Positions 3,613 through 51,597 of a DNA stretch of 64,000 bases are shown here, one piece after another. The position numbers and the translations under genes are program-made. Origin of the DNA: Salegentibacter salegens (lineage in GTDB: Bacteria; Bacteroidota; Bacteroidia; Flavobacteriales; Flavobacteriaceae); NCBI RefSeq assembly GCF_900142975.1, contig NZ_LT670848.1, positions 1,116,001 to 1,180,000 of the forward strand, in the 5' to 3' direction. The notes under the pieces were generated by a model that searched no databases, was not told the origin of the DNA, and saw only the letters and a program-made list of their open reading frames with translations. The number at the start of each line of letters is the position of its first letter. Within the stretch, counting starts at the first letter, position 1.

Positions 3613-3698
3613 CGTCATCCTGAATTTATTTCAGGATCTAAAAGTTGATAATCAAAACAAGTTAGAAGCTGAAACAAGTTCAGCTTGACGAAACTAGA
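3613..3698 (+). repeat. Cloverleaf intergenic repeat, copy A
   Basis: The copy starts CGTCATCCTGAA and ends TTCAGCTTGACG. CGTCA (3613-3617) pairs with TGACG (3686-3690). Inside are hairpin 1 (ATCCTGAA/TTCAGGAT), a small middle hairpin (TTGA/TCAA) and hairpin 3 (AAGCTGAA/TTCAGCTT). Related copies lie at 29616, 35406, 42135, 47025 and 51493. It fills the gap between the C1 peptidase and recQ. Confidence 0.85.
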
Positions 3699-3762
3699 CT
3701 TTCAATCGAGGTTAACCGTGATATTAAAAGTAAGTGATTTCCATATTTCTTCTGAGCATTTG

Positions 3763-3792
3763 TTTGCTAATTATTAGTTTAAACTAACTTTG
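3763..3792 (+). promoter_or_regulatory. recQ promoter
   Basis: TTTG (3763-3766), an 18-base spacer and TAACTTTG (3785-3792) match the Bacteroidota -33/-7 consensus. The -7 box ends only five bases before the recQ ATG, so the transcript should be leaderless or nearly so. Confidence 0.65.
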
Positions 3793-3797
3793 CTACT

Positions 3798-5915
3798 ATG
3801 GAAAATACCCGGGTTTTACATACACTTAAAGAATATTTTGGATTTGATAGTTTTAGACCGCTTCAAAAAAAGATCATCGATTCGGTTTTTGAAGGAAAAG
3901 ACAACCTGGTGATTATGCCCACCGGTGGCGGAAAATCTATTTGCTACCAGCTTCCTGCTATTTTACTTCCTGAAATTACCCTGGTGATTTCACCGCTTAT
4001 CGCCTTGATGAAAGACCAGGTAGACGGACTTACCGCTAATGGTGTTCCTGCAGCATTTTTAAATAGTAGCCAGACTGAAAGCCAGCAACAGGAAATCTTT
4101 AAAAAAATTGATTCCAAAGAATTAAAACTGCTTTACGTTGCTCCAGAAAGTTTACAGTTTGTAGACCGTTTTATGAGCGATGGCAAAATAAGTTTGATCG
4201 CCGTAGATGAGGCGCATTGTATCTCCAGCTGGGGGCACGATTTTAGACCGGCGTATACGCAATTGGGCTATTTAAAAAACCGCTTCCCCAATACCCCAAT
4301 GATCGCGCTAACCGCTACAGCCGATAAAGCTACACGAGAAGATATTTGCCGACAATTAAATATTCCAAACGCCGAAAAACACATCGCTTCTTTTGATAGA
4401 AAGAACCTTATCCTGGACGTTCGCCCGGGAATTAAGCGTTTTGAACAAATCACCAACTTTGTAAAAACCCGAAAAAAAGAAAGCGGAATTATCTATTGCC
4501 TAAGCCGAAAAAACACCGAGGAAATTGCTGCAAAGCTACAACGTAAAGGTTTTGAAGCTGAAGCTTATCACGCCGGTTTACCTGCGGAAAAGCGTATTGA
4601 AATTCAGGATAATTTTATCAACGATAATTCAAAAATTATTTGTGCAACCATCGCTTTTGGGATGGGTATCGATAAATCAAACATTCGCTGGGTAATTCAT
4701 TATAATATGCCCAAGAACCTGGAAGGCTATTACCAGGAAATTGGTCGTGCCGGGCGTGACGGTCTTCCTTCCGATACTATGCTTTTTCATAGTTATGCCG
4801 ATGTTGTGCAGTTGCAAAAATTCGCTTCCAATTCTGGAAACGAAGAAGTACAGCTTGCAAAACTGGACCGGATGAAACAATATTCTGAAGCCTTAAGTTG
4901 CCGTAGAAAAATTCTACTGAGCTATTTTGGCGAATTAAAACAGGAAGATTGTGGCAACTGTGATATTTGTAAGAATCCGCCACAGTTTTTTGACGGAACT
5001 GTGATCGCTCAAAAAGCGCTCTCGTGTATTTTCAGGCTAAAAGAAAACGAACCAATCACTGTTTTAATAGACGTTTTACGAGGTTCACAGAATGAAGCTG
5101 TTTTTAGTAAGAATTATCAGGAGATAAAAACCTTTGGAATTGGAAAAGATATTTCCTGGCATCACTGGCAGCAATATATTATTCAGCTTATCAATCTTGG
5201 GTATGTAGAAATAGCTTTTCACCGGGGCAATAATTTACAACTCACCGCATTGGCAAAAAACGTACTTTTTGAAGGCGAAAAAGTACAGCTTGCTGAAGTA
5301 CCAGACCGTAAAAAACTGAAGCGCCGGGAAGAAACAGAAGTTTCAGAAAAAACTTCAGATAATTCCCTTTTTGAAAAACTAAGGCAGTTACGTTTAAAAA
5401 TTGCTCGTGAAGAAGAAATTCCCGCTTACCTCATCTTTAACGATGCCACTTTAAAAGAAATGGAAAAATCCCGCCCTATGACCGATGATGAATTCCTTCA
5501 AATTAATGGCGTGGGAAGACAAAAAATGCAGGATTACGGGTACGATTTTATAAAGGAAATCATCGCTTTTAGTAAAAAAAAACGCAGCACTAAAAAACGT
5601 AAAAAAGCAAATACGTACAAAGCAACCCTGCATTTATTAAATGAAGGTTTAAGCCTGGAAGAAATTGCCAAAAAACGAGAGCTTGCGACTACCACAGTTT
5701 ATTCGCATTTAGCAAAATTATATGCCGAAAATGAAGCAGTAGATCCTATGAAATATATTTCTAAAGCTGATTTTAAAGCAATTGAAAAGGCAAAAGCTGA
5801 ACTTAAAAATCCCGAAGGTCTAAAACCATATTTCGAACATTTTGAAGAAGCAATAGATTATGGCACAATCAGACTCGCTTTAGCGGTTTTAGAAAAAGAA
5901 GAAGCAGAGGTTTAA
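3798..5915 (+). CDS. recQ: ATP-dependent DNA helicase RecQ
   Basis: RecQ is a 3'-5' superfamily 2 helicase acting in recombination and replication-fork repair. Walker A PTGGGKS is at residues 41-47, DEAH at 137-140, and motif VI QEIGRAGRDG at 313-322. The RecQ-Ct zinc site is formed by Cys368, Cys385, Cys388 and Cys391. An HRDC domain follows at about 525-595. After a very basic linker (near 596-608) comes a C-terminal helix-turn-helix-like segment (LSLEEIAKKRELATTTVYSHL) of the kind found in long RecQ proteins. At 705 residues it is longer than E. coli RecQ (about 610) because of this extra domain. Its stop overlaps the stop of convergent truA by four bases, and no terminator lies between them. 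Confidence 0.97.
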   Translation: MENTRVLHTLKEYFGFDSFRPLQKKIIDSVFEGKDNLVIMPTGGGKSICYQLPAILLPEITLVISPLIALMKDQVDGLTANGVPAAFLNSSQTESQQQEIFKKIDSKELKLLYVAPESLQFVDRFMSDGKISLIAVDEAHCISSWGHDFRPAYTQLGYLKNRFPNTPMIALTATADKATREDICRQLNIPNAEKHIASFDRKNLILDVRPGIKRFEQITNFVKTRKKESGIIYCLSRKNTEEIAAKLQRKGFEAEAYHAGLPAEKRIEIQDNFINDNSKIICATIAFGMGIDKSNIRWVIHYNMPKNLEGYYQEIGRAGRDGLPSDTMLFHSYADVVQLQKFASNSGNEEVQLAKLDRMKQYSEALSCRRKILLSYFGELKQEDCGNCDICKNPPQFFDGTVIAQKALSCIFRLKENEPITVLIDVLRGSQNEAVFSKNYQEIKTFGIGKDISWHHWQQYIIQLINLGYVEIAFHRGNNLQLTALAKNVLFEGEKVQLAEVPDRKKLKRREETEVSEKTSDNSLFEKLRQLRLKIAREEEIPAYLIFNDATLKEMEKSRPMTDDEFLQINGVGRQKMQDYGYDFIKEIIAFSKKKRSTKKRKKANTYKATLHLLNEGLSLEEIAKKRELATTTVYSHLAKLYAENEAVDPMKYISKADFKAIEKAKAELKNPEGLKPYFEHFEEAIDYGTIRLALAVLEKEEAEV

Positions 5916-6703
5916 AAATCTTCCAGCCCAATTTTATTTAAAAGCAATCCTGAAGCCGGTACTATATAATCCATTTGCATTTCTACACCAACTTTTAAGC
6001 TGTTTTCAATATCTTCTAAGCTCAATTCCCCTTTGCCAAGCTGCAGTAAAGCGCCCATCATTAACCTAACCTGGTGTCTTAGGAATCCGGCGCTGTGAAT
6101 ATGAAAAATATAAGATTTTTCAGGGAAAAAACTGGCGGTTATTTCGGTATTCTCTACTAATTCCGATTTTATAATTTCCCTTTCAAAAGTGCTGTTTTCT
6201 GAAACCCGCACACAGTAATTCCTAAATTGGTGTTTTCCTTCAAAAAGTTTTGCTCCTTTTTTCATCAATTCAATATCAAGATCAAATTGAAAATTAGCCA
6301 TTAAAGGCGCGCAAAAAGGATGGTTTTTGTCCCCGAAACTAAATAAATAGGCATACTCCTTAAGTTTTGGATGCTGAATGATATTAAATTTCGAATCTAC
6401 TTCAGTTATAGAAAGTGCTCTTATATCCTGGGGTAAATTCAGATTAAATTCCTTTAAAAATTCTTCAAAATCTGAAAGCGGTTTATAATCTAAAAACAAC
6501 TCAAACGCCGATTCCTGCGCTGAAACCATAGCATCTGTTCTACTGGTTCCTAAAATTTTAAACTTTTCAGCAGGCATCACATATCGCAGAGTTTTTGTGA
6601 TTAACTCTTCTACCGTTTTTACATTGGGCTGTTTTTGCCAGCCGTGTAAACGGTAACCTAAATACTGAATTTTAATAAGGTAAAAATAGCGTTTGGGTTG
6701 CAA
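5912..6703 (-). CDS. truA: TruA-family tRNA pseudouridine synthase, divergent
   Basis: The TruA fold is visible: YLGYRLHGWQKQPN at the N-terminus, the catalytic motif TSRTDAMVSA with nucleophile Asp57, and FLRHQVRLMMGAL near the C-terminus. TruA converts U38-40 in the tRNA anticodon arm to pseudouridine. The sequence departs from the usual GRTDxGVHA and GFLYHMVR motifs, so it may be a paralogue with another target; no second truA is in the window. The start is a TTG at 6703: an in-frame stop lies two codons upstream and the next in-frame ATG would delete the N-terminal domain. At 263 residues the length is normal. It probably forms a minus-strand unit with the acyltransferase upstream (33-base gap). 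Confidence 0.85.
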   Translation of the reverse strand: MQPKRYFYLIKIQYLGYRLHGWQKQPNVKTVEELITKTLRYVMPAEKFKILGTSRTDAMVSAQESAFELFLDYKPLSDFEEFLKEFNLNLPQDIRALSITEVDSKFNIIQHPKLKEYAYLFSFGDKNHPFCAPLMANFQFDLDIELMKKGAKLFEGKHQFRNYCVRVSENSTFEREIIKSELVENTEITASFFPEKSYIFHIHSAGFLRHQVRLMMGALLQLGKGELSLEDIENSLKVGVEMQMDYIVPASGLLLNKIGLEDF

Positions 6704-6735
6704 ATTTTAATTTTTCAGGGTTGTGGTAATTACTT

Positions 6736-7533
6736 CTAATATTCCCTTTTCTTGTTTAATTCTTCCATTTCCTTAATCGCTTCAGAAGGAATAACCTTGA
6801 GGAAAGAAGAGTGCTGCTCAATGGCATATTCGAGTTTATTTACAATATCTTCTATAGACTCATTTTCATAATCTATTTCAAGCGGTTCCTTAACCTGCAT
6901 AGTTTGTAAAATACCGCGCTTCTTGATCCTAATCCCTTTTTTATCAAAAGAGCGTCTAAATCCGTCTATCACAATAGGAATCACAATAGGTTTATATTGC
7001 TTTATAATATGCGCCGTTCCTTTTCTAATGGGTTTAAAAGGTTTGGTAGTTCCCTGGGGGAAAGTTATTACCCAGCCGTCTTCCAGGGCCATTCCAATAT
7101 TCTTTGTATCGTCTGGATTTACTTTTCGTTCAACTTCTTCGCCTTTTGCACGCCAGGTCCTTTCTACGCTAACGGCTCCCGCGTAAGCCATAATTCTATA
7201 AATCAATCCGGCATTCATCGTTTCTTTGGCCGCTACATAATATATATTAAGTTTTGGCTGCCAGATATAACCTACGTTTTTAATGGAATCTACCCTTCCG
7301 CTTAAGCTTGCGTTAAAAACGTGAAACATGGCGGTAACATCGGCAAAATAGGTTTGATGATTGGAAACAAAAAGTACATTATTATCGGGAAGGTTTTTAA
7401 TGATATCTGAGCCTTCAATACTAAGTTCATTATAGCCGCGATAACGGCGGTGGCTAAGTAATCCGAAGATACGGATAAGCCACTTTTTCAGAAATAAAAA
7501 ATGTCCAAATGGATTTCTTTTAAATAATCCCAT
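6736..7533 (-). CDS. Lysophospholipid acyltransferase (PlsC-like)
   Basis: The protein belongs to the LPLAT/PlsC superfamily, which transfers acyl groups from acyl-ACP or acyl-CoA to lysophospholipids at the inner membrane. Block I reads NHQTYFAD (His59...Asp65), five residues between His and Asp instead of the usual four. Block III reads FPQGT (158-162) instead of FPEGT. Similar variants are, from memory, common in Flavobacteriaceae, so it is likely an active subgroup. The N-terminus (residues 10-25) is hydrophobic and basic, suiting membrane attachment. It is upstream of truA on the same strand. It could be the 1-acylglycerol-3-phosphate acyltransferase or act on ornithine or other lipids. 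Confidence 0.85.
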   Translation of the reverse strand: MGLFKRNPFGHFLFLKKWLIRIFGLLSHRRYRGYNELSIEGSDIIKNLPDNNVLFVSNHQTYFADVTAMFHVFNASLSGRVDSIKNVGYIWQPKLNIYYVAAKETMNAGLIYRIMAYAGAVSVERTWRAKGEEVERKVNPDDTKNIGMALEDGWVITFPQGTTKPFKPIRKGTAHIIKQYKPIVIPIVIDGFRRSFDKKGIRIKKRGILQTMQVKEPLEIDYENESIEDIVNKLEYAIEQHSSFLKVIPSEAIKEMEELNKKREY

Positions 7534-7635
7534 AGTTTAAATTTCAGTTCTTACTTCCCTGTATACTTGCAGTTCGATTAGATTAGGAAACCAGCCCACG
7601 GAACCTAATCGAAAAATATAATTTAATTTTGAAAC

Positions 7636-7686
7636 AAGCCGGGCACTATTTAAATCTCGATTCTCGAGTAAAAATTAAGCCGGGCA
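7636..7686. repeat. Direct repeats flanking a shared intergenic motif
   Basis: Two exact copies of AAGCCGGGCA (7636-7645 and 7677-7686) flank a 30-base block (7648-7677) that recurs with three mismatches and a two-base gap at 62228-62259. The block contains CTCGATTCTCGAG, a partial palindrome. Both copies are intergenic. Function is unknown; it may be a second dispersed element. Confidence 0.5.
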
Positions 7687-7706
7687 AATATAGTAATTCT
7701 TAGTTT

Positions 7707-8348
7707 TTAAAAGCTTTTTCTAAAAATTTCCCGAATCTCACTCAGCATCATTCCCGTAGCTCCCCAAACAATTTGTTCGTTTAATCTAAATGCAGGAACA
7801 ATCATATTACTTGAGTAACTTGTGCTCAACTCCTGTTTTACAAAATTAGAATGATCTAAAAAATGATCTAAATCTACCTCTAAAATGCGCTCTACTTCGC
7901 TTTCCTGCGGAACCAAATTCGGAGTTTTTTCCAGCAAACCTAAATAAGGTTGCACCCAGAAATTACTTGGCGGGATATACAAGCGGGTAAGCGCTCTTAT
8001 TACTTCAATATTATTCCTGGGAATTCCTACTTCCTCTTCAGTTTCGCGTAAAGCGGTTTGTTGCAGGTTCTCGTCTTCAGGCTCTACGCGGCCACCCGGA
8101 AATCCTATTTGATTAGAATGAACGCCTTTATAAGTTTTTCTTAGAATTAAAACCAGGTGGGTTTTCCCAAAATTATCGGGATAAAATACAGCCATAACCC
8201 CTGCTTTATTAGGCTTAAGACTGTCAATATCAAGATTTCTCATCTCCTCAATGCGGTTGCCTGGCACTAATTTATGATGCGCCTTTTCTCCCGGAAGGAC
8301 AATTTTTTTTAATTTTGGTATCCTATCTTTAAAATCCTGAAAATCCAT
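7707..8348 (-). CDS. Nudix hydrolase, CoA pyrophosphatase-like
   Basis: The Nudix box GX5EX7REXXEEXGI is complete at residues 86-108 (GRVEPEDENLQQTALRETEEEVGI), giving a Mg-dependent nucleoside diphosphate-linked hydrolase. The segment just before it (GVHSNQIGFPGG) and the overall length (213 residues) match the NudL/CoA diphosphatase group, which cleaves CoA and its derivatives to phosphopantetheine and 3',5'-ADP. No signal peptide is present. The ATG (8348-8346) overlaps the ATG of the divergent cyclophilin gene by two bases, so the promoter for each must lie inside the other gene. Substrate assignment is from family resemblance only. Confidence 0.88.
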   Translation of the reverse strand: MDFQDFKDRIPKLKKIVLPGEKAHHKLVPGNRIEEMRNLDIDSLKPNKAGVMAVFYPDNFGKTHLVLILRKTYKGVHSNQIGFPGGRVEPEDENLQQTALRETEEEVGIPRNNIEVIRALTRLYIPPSNFWVQPYLGLLEKTPNLVPQESEVERILEVDLDHFLDHSNFVKQELSTSYSSNMIVPAFRLNEQIVWGATGMMLSEIREIFRKSF

Positions 8349-9108
8349 GAAAAACCCGCTTGCTTTCGTTTATCTTTTTCTAATTCTTTTTTTTGCAAGT
8401 TGTGAAGATAAGGAATCTTCCAGTAAAAATACTTCGGAAAAGCCTTTAGATAAAGAAGAAGTTACTCAAAAAACCTCCAAATTAGATTCACTGAGAGCGA
8501 AATACAGTAAAACAGAAGAACCCTCCTACCAAAGTGATTCTATTAAAAGCAACGAAGAGTTTCCCATTGCGCAGGAAGAACTAATCCCTTTTTTAACTCA
8601 ATACGGCAAGGAAAACCCTGAAACCCGGGTGAGAATCATTACCAGTTTTGGGAATATTGAAGTAGAACTTTTTAGAGATACTCCCCTGCACCGGGCCAAT
8701 TTTATAATGCTGGTAAAAGAAAATTATTTTAACAGCACCTTTTTTCACCGTGTTGCTCCGGGATTTGTAATTCAGGGCGGAAATTCAGATAATACGGCCA
8801 CACCCCGAAAACGTTCACAAATTGGAGATTACTTAATTCCCAATGAATTTGAGGCTGGGCATAAACATACTTATGGAGCTTTTTCTGCAGCAAAGTATAG
8901 CGAGCAAAATGTGAGTAAAGCTTCCTCTCCTTTTGAGTTTTTTATCGTAATAAAGGAAAACGGAACTCCGCATTTAAATAACGATCACACCGTTTTTGGA
9001 CGAGTTACCAAAGGCATGGATGTAGCTGAAAAAATTGTCCTGGTAGAAACCGGGCAATCTGAATGGCCAATTGATAACGTAGAGATGGACGTTGAAATAA
9101 TTGATTAA
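8347..9108 (+). CDS. Cyclophilin-type peptidyl-prolyl isomerase lipoprotein
   Basis: A lipoprotein signal (FLILFFASC, Cys19) is followed by an acidic, Ser-rich linker to about residue 90. The cyclophilin domain then runs to the end: VRIITSFGNIEVELF, NFIMLVKENYFNSTFFHRV, FVIQGGNSDN and FGRVTKGMDVAEKI are its recognisable blocks. The enzyme isomerises proline peptide bonds, here probably helping outer-membrane or secreted proteins fold in the periplasm. The start must be 8347, because a later start would remove the signal. A TAATTTTG -7-like box (8310-8317) lies inside the divergent Nudix gene. The stop abuts the stop of the convergent RDD gene with no intergenic DNA. Confidence 0.92.
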   Translation: MKNPLAFVYLFLILFFASCEDKESSSKNTSEKPLDKEEVTQKTSKLDSLRAKYSKTEEPSYQSDSIKSNEEFPIAQEELIPFLTQYGKENPETRVRIITSFGNIEVELFRDTPLHRANFIMLVKENYFNSTFFHRVAPGFVIQGGNSDNTATPRKRSQIGDYLIPNEFEAGHKHTYGAFSAAKYSEQNVSKASSPFEFFIVIKENGTPHLNNDHTVFGRVTKGMDVAEKIVLVETGQSEWPIDNVEMDVEIID

Positions 9109-9825
9109 TTAAGCTCGTTGGGTATAATAATTATAATCGGTAATCACCTGCTGTATAAATTCCATTGGGGATTCTTTGGGTTGAGTTTCCAGTAATTCTG
9201 ATAGTTTTTCTGAAAGCGATAAAATAAGTCGGTGATTATGGTTTCTTCTCGCGGTTTGGTAAAGATTTTTAATATTCTGCACATCGGTATCTTTTAAAAT
9301 ACTCACCTGTGGATATTTTGGTTCGTAGCCTTCAGGAACATCTACAGCCAAACTTCGGTTTAAATTTGTTCTTGGTTTTTCAGAAATCACCGTAGTTTTA
9401 GCGGCAAGATCGCCCAGCCGCTGCCCTTTTCCGTTTAATAAAATGGTGACAACAGCGATAGCGCCACTACTCATAGAAATATCAATAAACCGTAACAACC
9501 ACCTTATTAGATATTCGGCAAAAGCAGGCCTGCTGCCATCTAATTTCACCACTCTAATCTGTAAAGCGGCTTTTCCGGGGGTTTGGCCGTTATATAAACT
9601 CTCCCATAATAAATAATATAAGAGAGAAGGTAAACCCATAACCAGGTAATAGACCCACTGCCCTGCCGCATCTAATCCTGTACCGGCAAGTGCCAGCGAA
9701 CTTATCACTATATATAACCCAATTATAAACGCATCTACGATAAAAGCAAGGATGCGATCGCCCACACTTGCAACATTCTGATTAATACTTATATTTTGAG
9801 CGGTTTCAATTTGAAAATTATCCAT
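9109..9825 (-). CDS. RDD family membrane protein
   Basis: The protein carries an RDD domain: VGDRILAFIVDAFIIGLYIVI at 22-42 is the first membrane segment with its RD motif, followed by hydrophobic segments near 45-75 and 115-130. PGKAALQIRVVKLDG (about 84-98) and GQRLGDLAAKTTVI (133-146) are typical of the family. The remaining 90 residues are cytoplasmic and hydrophilic, with no motif I know. RDD proteins are poorly understood; some act in ion antiport. It is divergent from the SpoIIM-like gene, 34 bases away. RDD genes often accompany MoxR/SpoIIM operons in this phylum, so a link to that system is likely. Confidence 0.88.
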   Translation of the reverse strand: MDNFQIETAQNISINQNVASVGDRILAFIVDAFIIGLYIVISSLALAGTGLDAAGQWVYYLVMGLPSLLYYLLWESLYNGQTPGKAALQIRVVKLDGSRPAFAEYLIRWLLRFIDISMSSGAIAVVTILLNGKGQRLGDLAAKTTVISEKPRTNLNRSLAVDVPEGYEPKYPQVSILKDTDVQNIKNLYQTARRNHNHRLILSLSEKLSELLETQPKESPMEFIQQVITDYNYYTQRA

Positions 9826-12433: not shown

Positions 12434-13640
12434 AACATCAAAACTGTTTTTCGGCTTTTTTCTGCTACTGGTTATTTTCCTAACCTACCTCGAGGCTACA
12501 GAACCGGAGCCGGTAAACTGGACACCCAGCTATATGAGTGATGATAAAATCCCACTGGGAAGTTTTGTTTTTTATGAAAGCTGGAAAAATAACAAAAACT
12601 GGGAATTTGAGGAAATTGCCATCCCACCGTTCGAGAAACTTTCTGACAGCCTGGGAAATGGCACTTATTTCTTTCTGAATAATTCTGCATTTTTTGATCA
12701 GGACGAATTACACAAATTGCTTGATTGGGTCTCTATAGGAAATGAACTTTTTATTTCTGCAAGAAGCATTAGTCCTGAGTTGTTGGATACGCTTCAGTTA
12801 GAAACCAGGGTTTTTATTCCAAAAAACGATCTTAGCTCCAAACCACAGTTGAATTTTAAAAATTCAGTTTTAAAAAGTGAAACCTATTTTAAGTTTAAAA
12901 ATGAATTTTCTTCACTTTTCTTTCATCAAAAAGACAGTGCCAAAATTGAGATCCTGGGAGAAATAAATATTCAGGAAGACGATAAAAACAAACAGGCTAA
13001 TTTTATAAAATCAAATTTTGGAAAAGGGCAAATTTACCTTCATACTACTCCTGAGGCCTTTGGGAATTACTTTTTACTTACCGGCCAAAATTATAAATAT
13101 GCTGAAAATATCTTAGCTTACGTCAATAAAGAAAAACCGGTATTTTTGGATAATTATTATAAAGCTGGAAAAACCTTTTATTCCTCACCGCTTTATATCC
13201 TGCTCAGCAATAACCGACTTAAATGGGCGTACTATTTCTTGCTGGCCGGCTGTGTTTTGTTCATTATTTTTGAAGGAAAGAGAAAACAAAGGGCTATCCC
13301 TGTAGTAAATCCTTTAAAGAACCAAAGTTACGAATATGCAAAAACCGTGGGAGATCTTTATTTAGAAGAAAAGGAATACGGAGAATTAATCACGAAAAAA
13401 ATCAGTTTATTTTTAGAATATATCAGGATTCATTATAAGATTCCAACCAAAACCATAGACGAAGAATTCCATACCTTACTCGCATCAAAATCTGGAAATA
13501 ATATTACTTCCGGCAAGAAGCTTTTTGCGAAAATTGAGAAGTTTTCAAACAATACAAATGCCGGTAAAAGTGAGTTTTACGAACTTTCTGAGGCAATAAA
13601 TAATTTTAAATCACATTCCAATGGAAAACCAAGAAAATAA
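12426..13640 (+). CDS. DUF4350 domain membrane protein
   Basis: The product has an N-terminal membrane segment (residues 5-22), a long extracytoplasmic domain to about 260 with the ThuA/GATase-like DUF4350 pattern (NGTYFFLNNSAFFDQDELHKLLDWVSIGNELFISA), a second membrane segment (about 265-285) and a cytoplasmic tail. DUF4350 domains lack clear enzymatic residues and probably bind ligands. It overlaps DUF4129 by eight bases and the MoxR gene by 20, showing coupled expression. The protein probably senses or scaffolds at the membrane for the AAA ATPase encoded next; that is inference from context. Confidence 0.85.
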   Translation: MGKTSKLFFGFFLLLVIFLTYLEATEPEPVNWTPSYMSDDKIPLGSFVFYESWKNNKNWEFEEIAIPPFEKLSDSLGNGTYFFLNNSAFFDQDELHKLLDWVSIGNELFISARSISPELLDTLQLETRVFIPKNDLSSKPQLNFKNSVLKSETYFKFKNEFSSLFFHQKDSAKIEILGEINIQEDDKNKQANFIKSNFGKGQIYLHTTPEAFGNYFLLTGQNYKYAENILAYVNKEKPVFLDNYYKAGKTFYSSPLYILLSNNRLKWAYYFLLAGCVLFIIFEGKRKQRAIPVVNPLKNQSYEYAKTVGDLYLEEKEYGELITKKISLFLEYIRIHYKIPTKTIDEEFHTLLASKSGNNITSGKKLFAKIEKFSNNTNAGKSEFYELSEAINNFKSHSNGKPRK

Positions 13641-29518: not shown

Positions 29519-29589
29519 AATTTAATTTCTGTGTAGATGCAAAATTAGGCAAAGCTTTAGTTTCCTGAAACTTTCAGTTTAGAATTAAA

Positions 29590-29719
29590 AAAGCTGTCTG
29601 GAAAGTCCCTGAGAACGTCATTCTGAATTTATTTCAGAATCTAAGAAAATGAGAATTAATCTCATGTTAGAACCTGAAACCAGTTCAGGTCGACGAAACT
29701 AGATGTTCCAAACAGCTTT
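29590..29719. terminator. Long inverted-repeat terminator of lon enclosing repeat copy B
   Basis: Outer arms AAAGCTGTCTGGAA (29590-29603) and TTCCAAACAGCTTT (29706-29719) pair with one G-U-type mismatch and, on the minus strand, are followed by a T-run. The stop of lon lies six bases upstream. The 100-base loop holds repeat copy B. Confidence 0.75.
29616..29704 (+). repeat. Cloverleaf intergenic repeat, copy B
   Basis: It starts CGTCATTCTGAA and ends TCAGGTCGACGAAACTAGA. Hairpin 1 is ATTCTGAA/TTCAGAAT, the middle hairpin ATGAGA/TCTCAT, and hairpin 3 ACCTGAA/TTCAGGT. Compared with copy A, both arms change together in hairpins 1 and 3, which keeps the pairing. Confidence 0.85.
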
Positions 29720-35380: not shown

Positions 35381-35510
35381 AACGGTTTGAAAAGTTTCTT
35401 AAAAGCGTCATCCTGAATTAATTTCAGGATCTAGATTGTAATAATTTAGAATCTGAAACAAATGTTAGTATTTGGGACAAATTGACAATGAGAAGCCTTT
35501 TCAAACTGTT
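35381..35510. terminator. Inverted-repeat terminator enclosing repeat copy C
   Basis: Arms AACGGTTTGAAAAG (35381-35394) and CTTTTCAAACTGTT (35497-35510) pair with one mismatch, and T- or A-runs flank both ends. The right arm overlaps the stop and last codons of the convergent MFS gene (35501). Confidence 0.7.
35406..35490 (+). repeat. Cloverleaf intergenic repeat, copy C (degenerate 3' half)
   Basis: Hairpin 1 is intact (ATCCTGAA/TTCAGGAT, near 35409-35430) and the copy starts CGTCATCCTGAATTAATT. The 3' half (TTAGAATCTGAAACAAATG...ATTGACAATG) keeps the ATCTGAAACAA beginning but has lost the hairpin 3 pairing. Confidence 0.7.
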
Positions 35511-42102: not shown

Positions 42103-42362
42103 GTTTATAAACGGTCTCTCATTAAAATCATTGTTTCGTCAAGCTGTCCCGACGCTTCGGGATGTTTCAGACTTTATCCCGAATTTTCTACGGGATTCCA
42201 TCATGTTCAAATTTCAACATATTAGATCTCCGAAAAAAATTCGGAGCAAGCTCTGAAATAAATTCAAGATGACGGCACGGCTATAAAGACCTTTCGAGAA
42301 ACAGTAGTTTGATATTGATCTAATCTACATTTTCTTTGTAATCTTTTCCCTGAATAAAAATT
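42103..42362. other. Gene-free stretch with a composite repeat
   Basis: Together with the terminator this 317-base gap holds no open frame of note. Repeat copy D occupies 42135-42275; the rest is AT-rich with a weak 5-base outer pairing (GGTCT 42114-42118 against AGACC 42288-42292). Confidence 0.6.
42135..42275 (-). repeat. Cloverleaf intergenic repeat, copy D (inverted and expanded)
   Basis: Read on the minus strand it starts CGTCATCTTGAA and ends AGCTTGACGAAAC. Extra GC-rich hairpins sit where short loops are found in other copies: TCCCGACGCTTCGGGA (42147-42162), ATCCCG...CGGGAT (42176-42196) and CTCCGAA...TTCGGAG (42228-42246). The middle hairpin is ATGTT/AACAT. Confidence 0.75.
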
Positions 42363-45001: not shown

Positions 45002-45898
45002 ATGAAATGGACCTCAGCCCTACAGGATTATTGTAACTATCTTCGCATAGAACGTGGACTCTCAGATAACTCCATCACCAATTACAGGTTGGATGTTGTG
45101 AAACTTATCAACTTCTTAAGCGTTAAAAATATCGAGGTGTCCCCTATTCAAATTTCCGAAGAAATTTTACAGCAATTTATTTATGAAATCGCCAGGGATG
45201 TGAATGCCCGTTCACAATCGAGAATAATTTCTGGTTTACGCGGATTTTTTAATTACCTGGTTTTTGAAGATTACCGTAAAGACAATCCTTTAGATCTTAT
45301 CGAATCTCCCAAAATTGGCAGAAAATTGCCCGATACCATTTCTACGGAAGAAATTGATCTTCTTATTGCAAGCGTGGATCTTGGCAAAGCTGAAGGCGAA
45401 CGCAACCGGGCTATCCTGGAAACTTTATATGGCTGCGGCTTGCGGGTTAGTGAACTTACCGAGCTAAAAATCTCTGATCTTTTCTTTAAAGAAGGCTTTA
45501 TAAAAGTAACCGGAAAAGGTAATAAGCAGCGTTTTGTACCTGTTTCAGCTTATACACAGAAGTTTATTAATATTTATAAAGATGAAGTTAGAATTCATCA
45601 AAAGATCAATAAAGAATTTTCTGATACTTTATTTCTAAATCGAAGGGGAAACCAGCTCACCCGGGCAATGATTTTTACCATTATTAAACGCCTGGCAGAA
45701 AAAGCCGGAATTCAGAAAAAGATAAGTCCGCATACCTTTCGGCATTCTTTCGCTACCCATTTATTAGAAAATGGGGCCGATTTAAGAGCTATTCAGCAAA
45801 TGTTAGGTCACGAAAGCATTACCACTACCGAAGTGTATATGCACGTAGACCGCAAACATCTACGGGAAGTAATGGAGCAATTTCACCCACGACGTTAG
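45002..45898 (+). CDS. xerD: Tyrosine recombinase XerD/XerC
   Basis: This 298-residue recombinase resolves chromosome dimers at dif by strand exchange. The N-terminal SAM-like domain is at 1-95. The catalytic residues are all visible: Arg148 in GLRVSEL, Lys172, His244 and Arg247 in HTFRHSFATHLL, His270 in LGH, and nucleophile Tyr279 in TTEVYMHV. Flavobacteriia may carry one main Xer protein, and the symbol xerD is by best resemblance. It is monocistronic and divergent from a barrel gene. No dif-like site is apparent nearby. It is not part of an integron or island, because neighbours are core genes. Confidence 0.95.
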   Translation: MKWTSALQDYCNYLRIERGLSDNSITNYRLDVVKLINFLSVKNIEVSPIQISEEILQQFIYEIARDVNARSQSRIISGLRGFFNYLVFEDYRKDNPLDLIESPKIGRKLPDTISTEEIDLLIASVDLGKAEGERNRAILETLYGCGLRVSELTELKISDLFFKEGFIKVTGKGNKQRFVPVSAYTQKFINIYKDEVRIHQKINKEFSDTLFLNRRGNQLTRAMIFTIIKRLAEKAGIQKKISPHTFRHSFATHLLENGADLRAIQQMLGHESITTTEVYMHVDRKHLREVMEQFHPRR

Positions 45899-46024
45899 TG
45901 CTATTAAATTTGGGTTAAACCCTGCTAAAATCTTCTAAAAGCCCTTATTTATTAGTAATTTCAAGCTGAATAATATTTTTAAAAATTGCTACGGAAACCT
46001 GGTTTCCTTAAAAACAATACACAA

Positions 46025-46987
46025 ATGAAAACATTAAAATTTAAGAACGGCGATGAAATGCCGGCCATAGGATTAGGTACCTGGAAATCTGGAAAAGATG
46101 AAGTAAAGAAAGCGGTTAAAATCGCCTTAAATAATGGCTACAAGCATATTGATTGCGCTGCAACTTATGGAAATGAAGATGCCGTAGGTGAGGCTTTTTC
46201 TGAAGTTTTTGCTGAAGGAAAAATAAAACGTGACGAAGTTTGGATAACCTCTAAATTATGGAACAATGCTCATAAACAAGAAGATGTAATCCCTGCATTA
46301 AAAAAGACATTAAAAGACCTGCAGTTAGATTATCTAGACCTGTATCTAATTCACTGGCCGGTGGCTTTTAAGCCCGAGGTAGATTTTCCTCAGAATGATG
46401 ACGAATATTTATCATTAGAAGAAGCGCCAATAATTGAAACCTGGAATATGATGCTGGAAGCGAAAAAACAAGGTCTGGTAAAGCACGTTGGGGTTTCTAA
46501 TTTTAGCAGTATGAAACTTGAAGAATTAATGGAAGAAACTTCTGATTATCCAGAAATGAACCAGGTAGAATTACATCCTTATTTACAACAAAATGAGCTA
46601 CTGGAATTTTGTAGCAGTCATAACATTCATGTCACAGGATTTTCTCCACTTGGAAGCGGCGACCGCCCTGATGGGATGAAGGCAAAAAATGAACCTTCTT
46701 TATTAGAAAATCCTGTAATTAAAAAGATTGCGAAAAAACACGGTGCCAGTGCAGGACAGGTTTTAATAAAATGGAGCGAAATGCGAGGAACCGCAGTAAT
46801 TCCTAAATCTACAAATGAAGAACGTATTATAGAAAACCTTCAAAGTACAGGTGTAAATTTAGATGAATCAGATCTTCAAAAAATCGCCGAATTAGACGAT
46901 CATTTTAGATATGTCACCGGAGAGTTTTTTGTTACCAAAGGAAACTCTTACGAGAACATCTATGATGACGACGATTATAAAGCTTAA
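46025..46987 (+). CDS. Aldo/keto reductase
   Basis: The ATG at 46025 gives MKTLKFKNGDEMPAIGLGTWKSG, the family N-terminus; a TTG at 45986 in frame would only add 13 residues. The catalytic tetrad Asp43, Tyr48, Lys77 and His110 lies in HIDCAATYGN, TSKLWN and YLIHWP. GVSNFSSMKLEELM, NQVELHPYLQQ and AVIPKSTNEERIIENL (NADPH binding) follow. The enzyme (320 residues) reduces aldehydes or ketones with NADPH; the substrate is unknown. It is cytoplasmic and stands alone. A small palindrome (GGAAACCTGGTTTCC, 45993-46007) lies just before its start. Confidence 0.94.
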   Translation: MKTLKFKNGDEMPAIGLGTWKSGKDEVKKAVKIALNNGYKHIDCAATYGNEDAVGEAFSEVFAEGKIKRDEVWITSKLWNNAHKQEDVIPALKKTLKDLQLDYLDLYLIHWPVAFKPEVDFPQNDDEYLSLEEAPIIETWNMMLEAKKQGLVKHVGVSNFSSMKLEELMEETSDYPEMNQVELHPYLQQNELLEFCSSHNIHVTGFSPLGSGDRPDGMKAKNEPSLLENPVIKKIAKKHGASAGQVLIKWSEMRGTAVIPKSTNEERIIENLQSTGVNLDESDLQKIAELDDHFRYVTGEFFVTKGNSYENIYDDDDYKA

Positions 46988-47024
46988 TTAGTGAAGAACA
47001 AAAAGGGTGCTGAGAATTTTCGCA

Positions 47025-47087
47025 CCGTCCCCCTGAACTTGTTTCAGGGTCTAATAACTTAGATTCTGAAACATGTTTAGAGTGACA
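47025..47087 (+). repeat. Cloverleaf intergenic repeat, copy E (short)
   Basis: Hairpin 1 is CCCTGAA/TTCAGGG, a further paired change compared with other copies. The right half (GATTCTGAAACATGTTTAGAGTGAC) is degenerate. A separate GGTGC/GCACC hairpin precedes it (47006-47026), and a standard terminator follows. Confidence 0.65.
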
Positions 47088-47106
47088 AGTTTTTTATATA
47101 ATACAT

Positions 47107-47141
47107 AAAAAATGCCTTAGAAAATTTCTAAGGCATTTTTT
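47107..47141. terminator. Bidirectional terminator between the AKR gene and rny
   Basis: AAAAAATGCCTTAGAAA (47107-47123) and TTTCTAAGGCATTTTTT (47125-47141) pair perfectly, with A and T runs at the ends, so both converging genes can use it. Confidence 0.9.
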
Positions 47142-47171
47142 ATTTAATTACTTCCTCTTTGACTTATTAGG

Positions 47172-48734
47172 TTACTTAGCAATATTTACCGCTCTTGTTT
47201 CGCGAATTACGGTTACTTTAACCTGCCCCGGATAAGTCATATCGGTTTGGATCTTTTGTGAAATTTCAAACGAAAGATTTGAAGCTTTTTCATCGTTTAC
47301 TTTCTCGCTTTCCACAATAACTCGTAGTTCACGTCCCGCCTGGATAGCATAAGCTTTCTTCACTCCACCAAATCCAAAGGCGATCTCTTCAAGATCTTTT
47401 AAACGTTGAATATAAGAATCGAGTACCTGTCTTCTTGCACCCGGTCTCGCTCCACTAATCGCATCACAAACCTGTACAATAGGAGATAGTAAAGAATTCA
47501 TCTCGATCTCGTCGTGGTGAGCACCAATAGCGTTACAAACTTCTGGTTTTTCCCCGTGCTTCTCTGCCCATTGCATTCCAAGAATAGCGTGAGGAGTCTC
47601 AGTCTCGGTTTCCGGCACTTTACCAATATCATGGAGTAATCCGGCACGTTTAGCCAGCTTAGGGTTTATACCAAGCTCTGAGGCCATCACACCACAAAGT
47701 TTAGCAACTTCCCTGGAGTGTTGTAACAGGTTTTGACCGTAAGAAGAACGGTATTTCATTCGGCCTACCAATTTAATTAGTTCGGGGTTTAAACCGTGGA
47801 TTCCTAAATCAATTACGGTACGCTTACCAATATCTATAATTTCCTCGTCAATTTGTTTACGGGTTTTCTTAACTACTTCTTCAATTCTGGCCGGGTGAAT
47901 TCTTCCATCGGTAACCAATTTATGCAGCGATAAACGAGCTACTTCCCTTCTAACCGAATCGAAACAGGAAAGAATAATAGCTTCAGGCGTATCATCTACA
48001 ATGATTTCCACACCGGTAGCGGCTTCTAAAGCTCTAATATTTCTACCTTCACGGCCAATAATTCTACCTTTTACATCGTCGCTTTCCAGGTTAAATACCG
48101 AAACGCAATTTTCTACAGCTTCTTCAGTTCCTATTCGCTGAATGGTAGTAATAATAATTTTCTTCGCTTCCTGCTGTGCAGTTAGTTTAGCCTCTTCTAT
48201 AGTATCCTGAATTAACGCCATAGCATCTGTCCTTGCGCTGTCTTTAAGTGCTTCAGAAAGTTGAGCCTTGGCTTCATCGGCAGAAAGGCCAGAGATCACT
48301 TCTAATTGCTGAATCTGGCTGTTGCGAAGTTTATCAATTTCTTCCTGTTTCTTTTCAAGATACGCTACACGTTGGTTATAATCATCTAATTTTTCTTCAT
48401 ACTCTTTATTGAGCTTTTTATTCTTAGAAAGTTCTCCCGAAACCTGTGATTCTTTATCCCTAATGCGTTTTTCGGCATCATTCATCTTTTTATCACGGTT
48501 AAGAATTACCTTCTCGTGTTCCGATTTTAATTCGATGAATTTTTCTTTAGCCTGAAGTATCTTGTCTTTCTTGATACTTTCTCCTTCAGATTTTGCTTCT
48601 TTAAGAATGTTAGTCGCAGTTTTTTTGGCGTTTTTAATGGTTTGTGAAGCTCTTTTTCGCTCCAAAAACTTCGCAATGGCAAACCCTATTGCTGCCCCAA
48701 TAACCCCTATAACTATATTTAATAATATCTCCAT
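47172..48734 (-). CDS. rny: Ribonuclease Y
   Basis: RNase Y is a membrane-anchored endoribonuclease that starts mRNA decay. A single N-terminal membrane segment (about 3-20) is followed by a long Lys/Glu-rich coiled coil (to about 140), a KH RNA-binding domain ([28 protein letters not shown]) and an HD domain with HDIGK and HHDE metal ligands. The C-terminal [14 protein letters not shown] is highly conserved. At 520 residues the length is normal. A 6S-like RNA lies directly upstream, between rny and zapA, all on the minus strand. Confidence 0.98.
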
Positions 48735-48751
48735 ATTTAAAATTTATGTAT

Positions 48752-48931
48752 AAAAAAAGCCTGTATTAGATAGGTTTTTGGATTAAACTCCTTAAAAACA
48801 AGTTTAGGGCTAACAAGCTGATCAAGAATCCGCTCATCCCGACTAATCGGGAGCGGCGCGCTTTTACAACTTAGACTCACCCTTTTTAAAGAATCTTTGT
48901 TGAGTTTATCAAAATATCACTAATACAGGCA
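48752..48931 (-). ncRNA. ssrS: 6S RNA (6S-Flavo-like)
   Basis: On the minus strand the 222-base gap between zapA and rny can fold into one long hairpin: GCCTGTATTAG (48930-48920) pairs with CTAATACAGGC (48769-48759), and a T-run follows the closing stem as in a terminator. Inside are large internal loops and a GC-rich central hairpin (CCGCTC...GAGCGG with CCCGA/TCGGG), around 48831-48857. This open-promoter-like architecture, the size of about 180 bases and the position beside zapA, as in gamma-Proteobacteria, point to 6S RNA, which binds the housekeeping RNA polymerase in stationary phase. I cannot run a covariance search. Confidence 0.8.
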
Positions 48932-48957
48932 GTAACCTTTATTTATTTAAAGAACGT

Positions 48958-49251
48958 TTATGACACCAAGTGCTTCTGCAGTAAATCATTAAGCGATTTA
49001 AGTTTATCTTCTGCTTTAAGCGTATCGGTAGATCTATCTATATCTTTCTGCTCGGTTTGGGCAGCAAACTGCAAGGCGCACATCGCCAATACATCTTGCT
49101 TATCCCTTACGGCATAACTTTGCTCAAATTGCTTGATCATAGCCTCAATTTTCTTCGCCGCCTTGCGTAAACCTTCTTCCTGTTGTGGATTAATAGTTAA
49201 AGGATACACACGATCTGCAATAGAAAGTTTTATTTTTAGTTTATCGGCCAT
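48958..49251 (-). CDS. zapA: Cell division protein ZapA
   Basis: ZapA binds and bundles FtsZ in the Z-ring. The 97-residue product has the N-terminal beta-hairpin part with KIKLSIADRVYPLTINPQQEEGLRKAAKKIEAMI, then a long coiled coil (about 55-97), and lacks a signal. It follows a 99-residue coiled-coil gene by five bases and is followed by the 6S-like RNA. Gene order zapA then 6S RNA is also found in E. coli. Start at ATG 49251. Confidence 0.93.
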   Translation of the reverse strand: MADKLKIKLSIADRVYPLTINPQQEEGLRKAAKKIEAMIKQFEQSYAVRDKQDVLAMCALQFAAQTEQKDIDRSTDTLKAEDKLKSLNDLLQKHLVS

Positions 49252-49256
49252 ATTTA

Positions 49257-49547
49257 TTATTCAGATAATTGAACGATACATTGATCAATTTCCCTAATTA
49301 AGCTATTTAATTTAAGCTTGGTCTCTGTTTTGAATTCGGTACTGCCCAGCATTGCATTGGCGGCTTTGAGGTTTTGAACTTCCAGATTAGAACCTTCCAG
49401 TTTTTGGACTAATCTTTGATTTTCTTCTTTAACAGTTGTCATTTCTTCCTCTAAAGAACGGTGATTCTGCTTTAAATTTTCGTACTTATGAAGCAGTTTA
49501 CTAATCCTATTTTCAAGGCTATCAACGATGTCTGTCAATTCACTCAT
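49257..49547 (-). CDS. Coiled-coil protein paired with ZapA
   Basis: The frame can be opened at a TTG (49556), but the ATG at 49547 (MSELTDIVDSLENRISKLLHKYE) is the better start, because a TACATTTG box at 49561-49554 overlaps the TTG. The product is one long coiled coil, about 96 residues, with heptads of Leu and Ile, no Cys and no motif. It lies five bases upstream of zapA, so the pair is an operon. By size, coiled coil and position it resembles a ZapB-like partner of ZapA, but I see no sequence proof. Homologues at this place are common in Bacteroidota. Confidence 0.75.
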   Translation of the reverse strand: MSELTDIVDSLENRISKLLHKYENLKQNHRSLEEEMTTVKEENQRLVQKLEGSNLEVQNLKAANAMLGSTEFKTETKLKLNSLIREIDQCIVQLSE

Positions 49548-49553
49548 AAAAGC

Positions 49554-49561
49554 CAAATGTA
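49554..49561 (-). promoter_or_regulatory. -7 box of the zapA operon
   Basis: TACATTTG on the minus strand ends six bases before the ATG at 49547, which would give an almost leaderless transcript. No -33 TTG at 17-23 bases is seen, so confidence is moderate. Confidence 0.4.
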
Positions 49562-49731
49562 ATGCTTATCCCCACAAAGTTAACATTCGCGCTCTAATAT
49601 GCCAATTGTTTTTTCGTCTATTTTTAAAAATCGGCAGGACTATTGCTAAGTTTCTAAGCACTAAGGCTTTAATTTTTGGTTAAACTTTAATTAACTTTAC
49701 CGCCCGGTAATACTCCAAATAAAATATTTAT

Positions 49732-51426
49732 ATGAAATCTATTTTAGCTGTTATTCTTTTATTCGCTAGCACTGCAATCCTCGCCCAGGCGCAGCTCCCA
49801 AAAGATTATTTTCAGAAACCACTTGAAGTTCCCCTTGTTCTTTCAGGCACTTTTGGAGAACTGCGTTCTAATCATTTTCACAGTGGGTTAGATATTAAAA
49901 CCCAGCAACGACAGGGATTAAGTGTTGTCGCCTCAGCAAAAGGATATGTTAGCCGAATCAATATTCAGCATTATGGCTACGGAAAAGCGCTTTATGTGCA
50001 GCACCCTAACGGCTACACTACAGTTTATGCCCATTTAAAAGAATTTTCTCCTGGAATTGAAGCTTATGTAAAAAAGCGACAATACGCTAATGAAACTTAT
50101 GAAATAGAACTTTTTCCGGAAGCTGGAGAATTACAGGTAGAAGCAAATGAGCTTTTAGCATTTAGCGGAAATACCGGTGGCAGCGGTGGCCCTCACCTGC
50201 ATTTTGAAATTAGAGATGGCAGCCAGCGACCAATGAATCCAAAACTCTTCGGAATAAATATTGACGATAATCGCGCCCCAATAATAGATGGCTTATATGC
50301 TTATCCTTTAGATGCCGAGGCACACGTAAATAACTCAAGAGAGCGACAAAAAATTAACCTTACACCCCTCGAGGACGGAACCTATATTGCAAGCGAAATA
50401 GATGCTTGTGGAAATATTGGCTTCGGCGTTTCATCTGTAGATCAGCAAGACGGGGCACCTAACCGAAACGGAGTCTATCAAATTGAAGCTGAGCTAAATG
50501 GTGATCGCATATTAACCTTACCCTTTAAGCGTTTTTCTTTTGCTGAAACCCGCCATTTAAATCAACTTATAGATTATGAATACTACAGTAAAAACAGAAA
50601 ACGCATTCAAAAGCTTTTTGTTGAAAACGGAAATCCACTAAGCCTTTATGAAGATGTAGTGAACAAAGGAGAACTTCATATTCAAGATAGCCTTAATTAC
50701 AATTACACAATAAAAGTGAGCGACTTTGCCGGGAACCAGCGCGTGATAAGAGTTCCTATCCAGGGAATGCAACGCAACGATATTCCGCCTAAAAAAGAAG
50801 ATAAAACCGATTATTTCGCGCAGGCGAATCAGCCCTTCGCTGCTGAAGCTAATGGAATGGACGTTTATATCCCCAAGGGAAGTCTTTATAGTGACACCTA
50901 TTTAGATATTGAATTTGGAGAAGACAAAGTGAAAGTTCATCAAGACCACACCCCGCTTCATAAAAATATCACTATAGGATTTGATGTAAGCGGATATTCG
51001 GCTGAAGAAAAAGAAAAACTTTTTATCGCCAGGTTAGGCTATGGAAATAGGCCTAATTATTCTTCAACTTATAAAAAAGCAAACCGTTTCACCACTGGTA
51101 CAAGAACTTTTGGGGAATACACGCTAGCTTCAGATGTTACCCCTCCAAAAATATGGCCTACGAATTTTAACGATGGCCAGTGGATCTCAAGCAATAACAA
51201 TTTACAGGTGAAAATTAGTGATGATCTCTCAGGGATTAAAAGTTACCGGGCTACGGTAAACGGAAAATTTATCCTGATGGAATATGAGTACAAAAATAAT
51301 ACGCTAACCCACGATTTTAGCGATGGCGTAGTCACTGAAACCGAAAATGAGCTAAAAATAATTGTAACCGATAATGTGGGGAATAGCAATACTTATGAAG
51401 CTACGTTTTTTAGGAAGGATTCTTAA
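49732..51426 (+). CDS. M23 family metallopeptidase (LytM type), secreted
   Basis: A signal peptide (cut after QAQA or near residue 20) is followed by a peptidase M23 domain. The zinc-site motifs are HxxxD at 50-54 (NHFHSGLD) and HxH at 155-157 (GGPHLHFEI), and His101 in VYAHLKEF is the catalytic His. The enzyme should cleave peptidoglycan cross-links or act as an activator of amidases. Residues 190-564 are a long beta-rich region with RDGSQRPMNPKLFGINIDDNRAP, KVSDFAGNQRVIRVPI and SDDLSGIKSYRATVNG, resembling Ig-like modules. It is monocistronic and ends before repeat copy F. Confidence 0.92.
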   Translation: MKSILAVILLFASTAILAQAQLPKDYFQKPLEVPLVLSGTFGELRSNHFHSGLDIKTQQRQGLSVVASAKGYVSRINIQHYGYGKALYVQHPNGYTTVYAHLKEFSPGIEAYVKKRQYANETYEIELFPEAGELQVEANELLAFSGNTGGSGGPHLHFEIRDGSQRPMNPKLFGINIDDNRAPIIDGLYAYPLDAEAHVNNSRERQKINLTPLEDGTYIASEIDACGNIGFGVSSVDQQDGAPNRNGVYQIEAELNGDRILTLPFKRFSFAETRHLNQLIDYEYYSKNRKRIQKLFVENGNPLSLYEDVVNKGELHIQDSLNYNYTIKVSDFAGNQRVIRVPIQGMQRNDIPPKKEDKTDYFAQANQPFAAEANGMDVYIPKGSLYSDTYLDIEFGEDKVKVHQDHTPLHKNITIGFDVSGYSAEEKEKLFIARLGYGNRPNYSSTYKKANRFTTGTRTFGEYTLASDVTPPKIWPTNFNDGQWISSNNNLQVKISDDLSGIKSYRATVNGKFILMEYEYKNNTLTHDFSDGVVTETENELKIIVTDNVGNSNTYEATFFRKDS

Positions 51427-51461
51427 AAACAGAAGTAATAAGTTTTTAATGAAAGAAAATA

Positions 51462-51597
51462 AAAGGCTATCTGAAATATCTTTAGTTCAGTTCGTCATCC
51501 TGAATTTATTTCAGGATCTAAGTTGTTTCAATTTGCAACATATTAGAAGCTGAAACAAGTTCAGCTTGACGAAAATTAGATATTTCAGGTAGCCTTT
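51462..51597. terminator. Inverted-repeat terminator enclosing repeat copy F
   Basis: A 20-base arm starting AAAGGCTATCTGAAAT (51462-51481) pairs with the arm ending TTCAGGTAGCCTTT (51578-51597) with one mismatch that can be a G-U pair. A and T runs flank the arms. Both convergent genes (M23, GlmU-like) end close by. Confidence 0.8.
51493..51571 (+). repeat. Cloverleaf intergenic repeat, copy F
   Basis: CGTCA (51493-51497) pairs with TGACG (51567-51571). Hairpin 1 is ATCCTGAA/TTCAGGAT and hairpin 3 AAGCTGAA/TTCAGCTT, identical to copy A. The middle hairpin, GTTG/CAAC, differs from copy A yet still pairs. Confidence 0.88.

Follow-up and report, generated by a model that had tools for sequence, protein, structure and literature searches.

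Paired CGTC hairpins in the window and in the genome

The stretch of Salegentibacter salegens DNA considered here (64,000 nucleotides, positions 1,116,001 to 1,180,000 of contig NZ_LT670848.1; henceforth the window) makes up 1.6% of the 4.01-Mb chromosome and contains six intergenic copies, A to F, of a dispersed hairpin repeat, each a pair of repetitive extragenic palindromic elements (REPs) marked by a CGTC tag. We show that small standalone genes for GIY-YIG nucleases lie within or beside such REPs in this genome and in many others, and suggest that these nucleases may serve the REPs as mobile DNA. The copies had been reported from a sequence-only reading and are borne out by a search with CGTCATYCTGAA, by a repeat search and by their coordinates; with the stems around them they are as follows.

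3613..3690, + strand: copy A, complete CGTC-REP dimer, hairpins ATCCTGAA/TTCAGGAT and AAGCTGAA/TTCAGCTT
29588..29603, + strand: left arm of the terminator-like outer stem of copy B
29616..29695, + strand: copy B, complete dimer
29706..29719, + strand: right arm of the terminator-like outer stem of copy B
35384..35400, + strand: left arm of the outer stem of copy C
35406..35486, + strand: copy C, one REP intact, second REP decayed
35490..35505, + strand: right arm of the outer stem of copy C
42137..42274, - strand: copy D, enlarged dimer with nested hairpins TCCCGA..TCGGGA and CTCCGAA..TTCGGAG
47026..47087, + strand: copy E, short dimer, hairpin CCCCTGAA/TTCAGGGT
47107-47141: separate terminator-like hairpin after copy E
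51462..51480, + strand: left arm of the 19-base outer stem of copy F
51493..51571, + strand: copy F, complete dimer
51579..51597, + strand: right arm of the 19-base outer stem of copy F

Allowing one mismatch, CGTCATYCTGAA matches the window six times (shuffled mean 0.37; six or more in 0/100 shuffles): four matches coincide exactly with the ends of copies A, B, C and F, another falls on D (one mismatch), and the sixth, at 12970, lies within an open reading frame (ORF) and belongs to no repeat copy. Copy E, with CGTCCCCCTGAA, two mismatches from CGTCATYCTGAA, was recovered by the repeat search. Each copy had been drawn as a three-hairpin fold closed by pairing of CGTCA with TGACG. The two end hairpins stand, as separate structures with compensatory changes; the case for the middle hairpin is slight (mean best stem 3.71 vs 3.38 shuffled, standard deviation 0.13; 5/300 shuffles as high), and the CGTCA/TGACG pairing, which is present, is a consequence of the inverted tags and no independent evidence. 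The longer outer stems around B, C and F had been overlooked.

Genome-wide, a 28-base motif with up to three mismatches occurs at 106 forward and 106 reverse places, and the pattern of the main REP class, T1, with up to one mismatch at 86 forward and 83 reverse places; the backwards-read controls gave 0. This is the highest T1 count among 120 genomes of the family, 45 of which have any T1 (backwards-read control 0 throughout). Since classes T4 (13 places) and T5 (4, by a strict pattern) are far rarer in this genome, amplification is well shown here for T1 only. At least 16 T1 places are clustered in about 126 kb (3.849-3.975 Mb).

The REP unit consists of the CGTC tag, an 8-bp stem with a 5-base loop, and CTAA. 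In particular, we examined 75 distinct S. salegens hairpins that had been selected by tag, layout and inner core only, so that tag and 8-pair/5-base-loop layout were search anchors and the four outer pairs could be tested. Watson-Crick pairing is seen in 86.7% of these outer pairs and, with the arms shuffled, in 64.3% (maximum of 1000 shuffles, 71%); each hairpin of the dimer is thus preserved via compensatory change, and the earlier proposal that the fold, not the sequence alone, is maintained holds. The tags are CGTC in 70 and TGTC in 5; the first stem pair is A-T in 64/75, the second T-A (39), A-T (14) or C-G (9), the third C-G (31), G-C (18) or T-A (13), and loop bases 1 and 4 are C-G in 42 and T-A in 27. 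Single mismatches, in small numbers, comprise 6 G-T, 6 A-C and 13 others, G-T being no commoner than A-C, with no sign of selection at the RNA level. A structured RNA was rejected, given the absence of a wobble excess and of any Rfam match to the REP copies: at the gathering threshold the sole match in the whole window is a 6S-Flavo RNA (RF01685, 98.9 bits; 48785-48905, - strand).

Units lying within 170 bp of one another are arranged as 48 outward, 3 inward and 0 tandem pairs (145 units in 322,648 fetched bases), dimers such as B being missed by the strict detector owing to a mismatched closing pair; the spacer between the hairpins is 28-31 bases in 29 of these 48 dimers. RNAfold offers as an alternative one long hairpin joining both dimer halves. 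We reject it, considering the covariation within each hairpin and the fact that, among the variable stem positions (dimers outside 55-90 bases and identical dimers dropped), pairing across the halves is possible at 9/180, a figure unaffected by dimer selection, and pairing within a hairpin at 172/180, a figure that the selection favours. Since the halves are hardly ever complementary, almost every dimer is a heterodimer whose two hairpins are separate structures.

Standalone GIY-YIG genes beside the REPs

Seven GIY-YIG matches were found in the S. salegens genome, three of them long (461-624 aa) and four small and standalone.

L032: small standalone GIY-YIG gene; several T1 dimers in its flanks
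L033: small standalone GIY-YIG gene; adjoins tRNA-Val, with a T1 unit downstream
L034: small standalone GIY-YIG gene; GAGCGCAGTCGAG-type REPs (class T4) in its flanks; N-terminus looks broken
L035: small standalone GIY-YIG gene; CATTGCGAG-type REPs (class T5) in its flanks; interrupted by an IS200-like element

The IS200-type transposase gene inside the T5-flanked gene L035 occupies positions 2213092-2213701 of the genome. Among the clades into which the nucleases of the genus fall (a, b and c below), the clade-a protein, whose gene in S. salegens is placed at 1517399-1517623 of the genome, is a single GIY-YIG domain of 94 residues (PF01541, 6.1e-17), in which Y7, Y18, G20, R28, H32 and E65, invariant across 20 sequences, presumably are the catalytic positions. 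Its structural model is confident (pLDDT, the predicted local distance difference test score, 95.0); the nearest folds are the GIY-YIG domains of UPF0213 BH0048, Slx1 and UvrC (best E 1.2e-3, the fold search giving no match under E 0.001), and the nearest solved sequences are two UPF0213 proteins. Slx1 cuts branched DNA.

The association with REPs was established on 80 GIY-YIG loci from many phyla, the best 80 of 550 relatives, picked by protein similarity alone. A [CT]GTC-tagged hairpin lies within 350 bp in 52 of the 80. The density of such hairpins near the genes (125 in 54,552 bp, 2.29/kb) is about 12 times that in DNA 1.2-2.9 kb away (42 in 226,605 bp, 0.185/kb), and with intergenic DNA alone the ratio is 15 (72 in 18,613 bp, 3.87/kb, vs 10 in 40,015 bp, 0.25/kb). 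The hairpins are also oriented with respect to the gene, the nearest upstream being plus in 31 cases and minus in 9, the nearest downstream minus in 31 and plus in 10; hairpins stand on both sides in 29/80 loci, and in 19 of these an outward pair encloses the gene, with 20 bp or less to the hairpin on either side in 9 cases. A tag-agnostic count of inverted repeats in the flanks (score at least 16) gave 46/108 GIY-YIG genes against 6/175 other genes of the same loci (p=5e-17), L121, L125, L138 and L142 of the 30 family loci having been dropped, with two more of the 110 for short flanks. Within the genus, the standalone genes have 38 hairpins in 30,100 bp (1.26/kb; 18/43 loci positive, 5/48 ORFs below 75 aa omitted) and the long GIY-YIG genes, taken as control, 2 in 7,000 bp (0.29/kb; 13 genes, six with one flank cut off). 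Tight outward pairs enclose 7 of 1,257 ORFs (2 GIY-YIG, 5 unrelated genes, no transposase) in a scan of DNA that had in part been selected for the REPs or GIY-YIG genes it carries, and T1 REPs are present at 2 to 62 places each in 19 of 20 further genomes, picked out of the 80 loci as T1-type.

We show by these analyses an association of small standalone GIY-YIG genes with CGTC REPs, within or beside which the genes lie. The finding appears to be new: no published GIY-YIG/REP link was met among the papers listed from the open-licence PMC literature, which takes in neither bioRxiv nor subscription papers. In the paper by Di Nocera, De Gregorio & Rocco (2013; PMC3733652), the CGTC REP superfamily is recorded as having no dedicated transposase, and the words GIY-YIG and terminator occur 0 times.

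Nuclease clade and REP class go together. On a tree of 110 proteins (few columns, many open forks, the long ORF L062 cut to 130 residues), REP class changes 29 times, against a shuffled mean of 60.8 (as low in 0/200 shuffles), and one clade is T1 in 26/26. Since host taxonomy could yield such clustering, the comparison within genomes matters, and G123, a genome of the genus, holds clades a, b and c together, each with its own REP class. Across the genus, in a table of the ORFs within these clades (31/48 fall outside them), clade a goes with T1 in 7/7 cases, clade b with T2 in 6/7 (the seventh being a tie) and clade c with T5 in 3/3. Each well-sampled REP class, in short, has its own nuclease clade, clearly so for T1, T4 and T5 and more weakly for T2.

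Some of the genes have other neighbours. Six GIY-YIG genes of the genus, L033 (1375-1743), L200, L262, L263, L277 and L283, lie 22-49 bp from tRNA-Val, -Asp or -Phe; 6/43 genes but 1/86 control points are within 150 bp of a tRNA gene, and in two wider sets such adjacency was seen in 0/80 and 0/26. By eye, some of these genes adjoin tRNA-like copies in which a TCCCGA..TCGGGA hairpin replaces the anticodon arm. At L119, L120, L123 and L148 (other flavobacteria) and at L243 (genome G125) the GIY-YIG gene stands between hairpins whose CGTC tag is lost or decayed, and its neighbours there look to us like histidine-biosynthesis genes.

Genomic setting and sites in related species

The 48 S. salegens dimers lie between convergent genes (23), genes of the same direction (23) or divergent genes (2), so that 46 are downstream of at least one gene. 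The longer outer stems around some dimers reach a score of 12 that is attained by 1/240 shuffled and 29/600 swapped flank pairs. Several end in a T run, resembling intrinsic terminators, and between species the stems vary on both sides. Considered as a possible part of the mobile unit, the stems have the sequence AGGCTGTTTGA in common in some copies and differ in others, and terminators of this kind are also found with no REP. Around copy F, 17-19 of the 19 pairs are Watson-Crick in 5/6 species, and 14 in G123, where there is a single additional base.

Close species differ in whether orthologous sites carry a REP. The site of copy F is occupied by its counterpart in G120, G123, G125, G126 and G127, in inverted orientation in G123, G125 and G127; the entire REP-bearing hairpin (window 51462-51597; L212, L213, L214) thus stands reversed at its site in three of the six species, for which recombination of the outer inverted arms with each other would account without transposition. 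At the copy A site, G126 and G123 have an interval of 26-47 bp with no dimer; no REP was seen at the copy C site in G123, G125, G126 or G127; the copy D site in G126 is occupied by a T5-class REP; and the copy at own_1240700 is missing from both relatives compared. In copy B of G127 the tip of the first hairpin is a different hairpin (TCCCGAAGCTTCGGGA), the right flank being identical over 40 bases. At own_3823700 and in G127 a GCCGTTTG/CAAACGGC terminator carries the dimer in its loop; in G126 the terminator has no dimer. A first systematic comparison had 26 testable sites, with a REP in both genomes at 18 and 8 flagged, among which G127_C8:8183 is a detector miss and 13282 and 59852 are larger or unclear rearrangements. 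A second had 38 and 27 testable comparisons, with a REP in both at 19 and 21; several of these concern one S. salegens copy, and some flagged ones are detector misses.

How the REPs may spread, and known systems

We suggest that CGTC REPs are non-autonomous mobile DNA elements served by a class-specific GIY-YIG nuclease, and put the probability of this at somewhat above one half, roughly 0.57; cleavage by the nuclease and movement of the REPs are steps that we infer. On this proposal some loci carry a single-domain GIY-YIG endonuclease gene, either next to the REPs or where the spacer would be, much as a REP-associated tyrosine transposase (RAYT) gene sits in a REPtron. The nuclease would bind the class-matched REP hairpin in single-stranded or cruciform DNA, a step to which the class specificity points, and may cut it at the foot, by the tag, or at the tip, whereupon host repair would insert a copy of the dimer elsewhere in intergenic DNA. 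Preferred targets would be the tips of further hairpins, those of transcription terminators among them, as the positions in terminator loops and the tip exchange at copy B suggest.

Several observations weigh against this proposal. The GIY-YIG domain only hydrolyses DNA, so that the copying must be the host's, and inspection of the compared sites by eye revealed no clean target duplication. At the one terminator locus of its kind that could be polarised by a third species (own_3823700), the absence in G126 is more simply read as loss, and 14/48 dimers lie within a longer terminator-like outer stem. With the strict detector, 28 of the 80 loci, and 25 of the 43 standalone genes of the genus, have no tagged hairpin. 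The REP classes were defined after inspection of the flanks, 29 of the 110 tree rows are unlabelled, T2 alone is not significantly clustered (46/500 shuffles as low), and within the genus every T2 label is based on 1-3 motif matches. In favour of the proposal, T1 places are more numerous in the genomes of the genus with clade a (169, 146, 77, 151 and 123) than in those without, which have 110, 2, 5, 100, 64, 76, 22, 0, 70 and 1 (exact one-sided p=0.0013, uncorrected for descent, by which the counts are not independent); with G125 (64 T1), which was scored as lacking clade a and whose L243 protein is nearest the wider T1 clade, moved to the other group, p becomes 0.006. Against it, G124 (100 T1 places) has no clade-a gene, and any intact standalone GIY-YIG gene is missing from G120 (110), G128 (76) and G130 (70). 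Considering that T1 is kept in these last three, the REPs seem to outlive the nuclease gene, as GTAG REPs persist after deletion of their REPtron (Di Nocera et al., 2013; PMC3733652).

The strongest rival, which we consider unlikely but worth taking seriously, is that the GIY-YIG genes encode homing endonucleases of the free-standing kind, for which REP dimers are places to land, each nuclease cutting its REP class and repair copying the gene into the spacer, and that the REPs spread by other means. GIY-YIG is a classical homing-nuclease domain, and the enclosed genes of the 19 loci, the REPs that persist without a nuclease gene and the genes beside tRNA genes instead, where a site-seeking gene might be found, would all suit such a history. 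We nevertheless favour a nuclease that serves the REPs because the gene copy number is low, like that of RAYTs, despite many equal REP sites (one clade-a gene for 169 T1 places in S. salegens, two each in G123 and G127) and because no second gene was seen to recur between paired REPs; that T1 is more numerous where clade a is present also speaks against homing. It is less probable still, and in our estimate improbable, that selection maintains the REPs as structures of the host (terminators, mRNA ends or nucleoid sites) and that recombination and gene conversion spread them, with the nucleases as passengers or debris of a repeat-rich region. The position of dimers downstream of genes and in terminator-like stems, and the upkeep of outer stems in orthologues, would be expected of such structures, but the sites differ between close species, a single gene family is associated with the REPs across phyla, in a class-specific manner, and G-T is not in excess over A-C, unlike what selection on RNA would leave.

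That a RAYT/TnpA-REP or IS200-type Y1 transposase moves the REPs is already disfavoured and is, of the explanations considered, by far the least credible. The sequence-only reading had classed the repeat as a REP-type dispersed element and named TnpA-REP as the precedent; the classification stands, whereas the transposase, a known mechanism for GTAG REPs, was rejected as a partner after searches with Y1 models from Pfam and NCBIfam and a RAYT model. The RAYT model gave 0/15 matches above its cut-off of 80 in the congeneric genomes, with sub-threshold matches in 9/15 (best 72.1 bits), and at E<=0.001 none in the T1-rich G000, G120, G124 and G126 (77-169 T1 places). The sole Y1 transposase found in the S. 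salegens genome is of IS200 type (145.6 bits, cut-off 55; RAYT 29.2) and sits in the T5-flanked GIY-YIG gene. Five Y1 loci were fetched with flanks of up to 1.5 kb (L328-L332); tagged hairpins are absent from four of them, and the fifth has just one, which does not resemble T1. In agreement, no gene for a tyrosine transposase with CGTC REPs in its flanks is reported in PMC3733652.

More tentatively, at odds a little short of even, standalone GIY-YIG nucleases may constitute a second, independent class of REP-mobilising enzyme, occurring in Bacteroidota, Proteobacteria, candidate phyla and other groups. In such a transposase-free system, host repair together with a nuclease of 90 residues that recognises structure would multiply hairpin DNA and guide it to further hairpin tips, in terminators, REPs and tRNA genes. 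Which enzyme, if any, moves CGTC REPs was left open by Di Nocera et al. (2013; PMC3733652, as cited above). A small candidate enzyme with a matched substrate for each clade makes that question directly assayable by cleavage. If true, the proposal would give a role to a common gene group that now bears only a domain name, and REP-like amplification would have arisen twice, with unrelated enzymes.

Among known systems, IS200/IS605 elements have subterminal hairpins with a short guide tag, as here, and differ in that no HUH enzyme is linked to the present REPs. The repeats fit the CGTC REP superfamily, tail excepted, and 'G. forsetii', which we take to be a Gramella, is a CGTC-positive organism. 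It is listed as such in PMC3733652, where the superfamily shares with our repeats a CGTC/TGTC tag, an 8-bp stem mostly starting AT with a loop of 4-5, inverted dimers that are often heterodimers, and a location between convergent and unidirectional genes; its predominant HH arrangement (heterodimers mostly in families 2-3) we assume to be equivalent to the outward pairs here. The T1 tail, CTAA or CTCA, differs from the superfamily's mostly CCA, but since that paper says 'most', not all, the mismatch does not exclude membership, and CCA tails are present in T2-like elements of other loci. With the GTAG REP/RAYT REPtrons and REPINs, as described in the parts of PMC6006769 and PMC8266576 drawn on, the present system has in common a tetranucleotide tag at the hairpin foot, inverted pairs, several classes per genome and an enzyme gene with REPs of the matching class in its flanks, the tag being CGTC here and GT[AG]G there. 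The partner is a GIY-YIG nuclease here and an HUH tyrosine transposase in REPtrons, no RAYT being above cut-off in the genus. Finally, the nuclease shares its fold and the conserved Y, G, R, H and E with GIY-YIG homing endonucleases, UPF0213, Slx1 and the N-domain of UvrC, and differs from them in being a domain of about 90 residues only, which at the loci seen lies outside introns and within or beside REP pairs.

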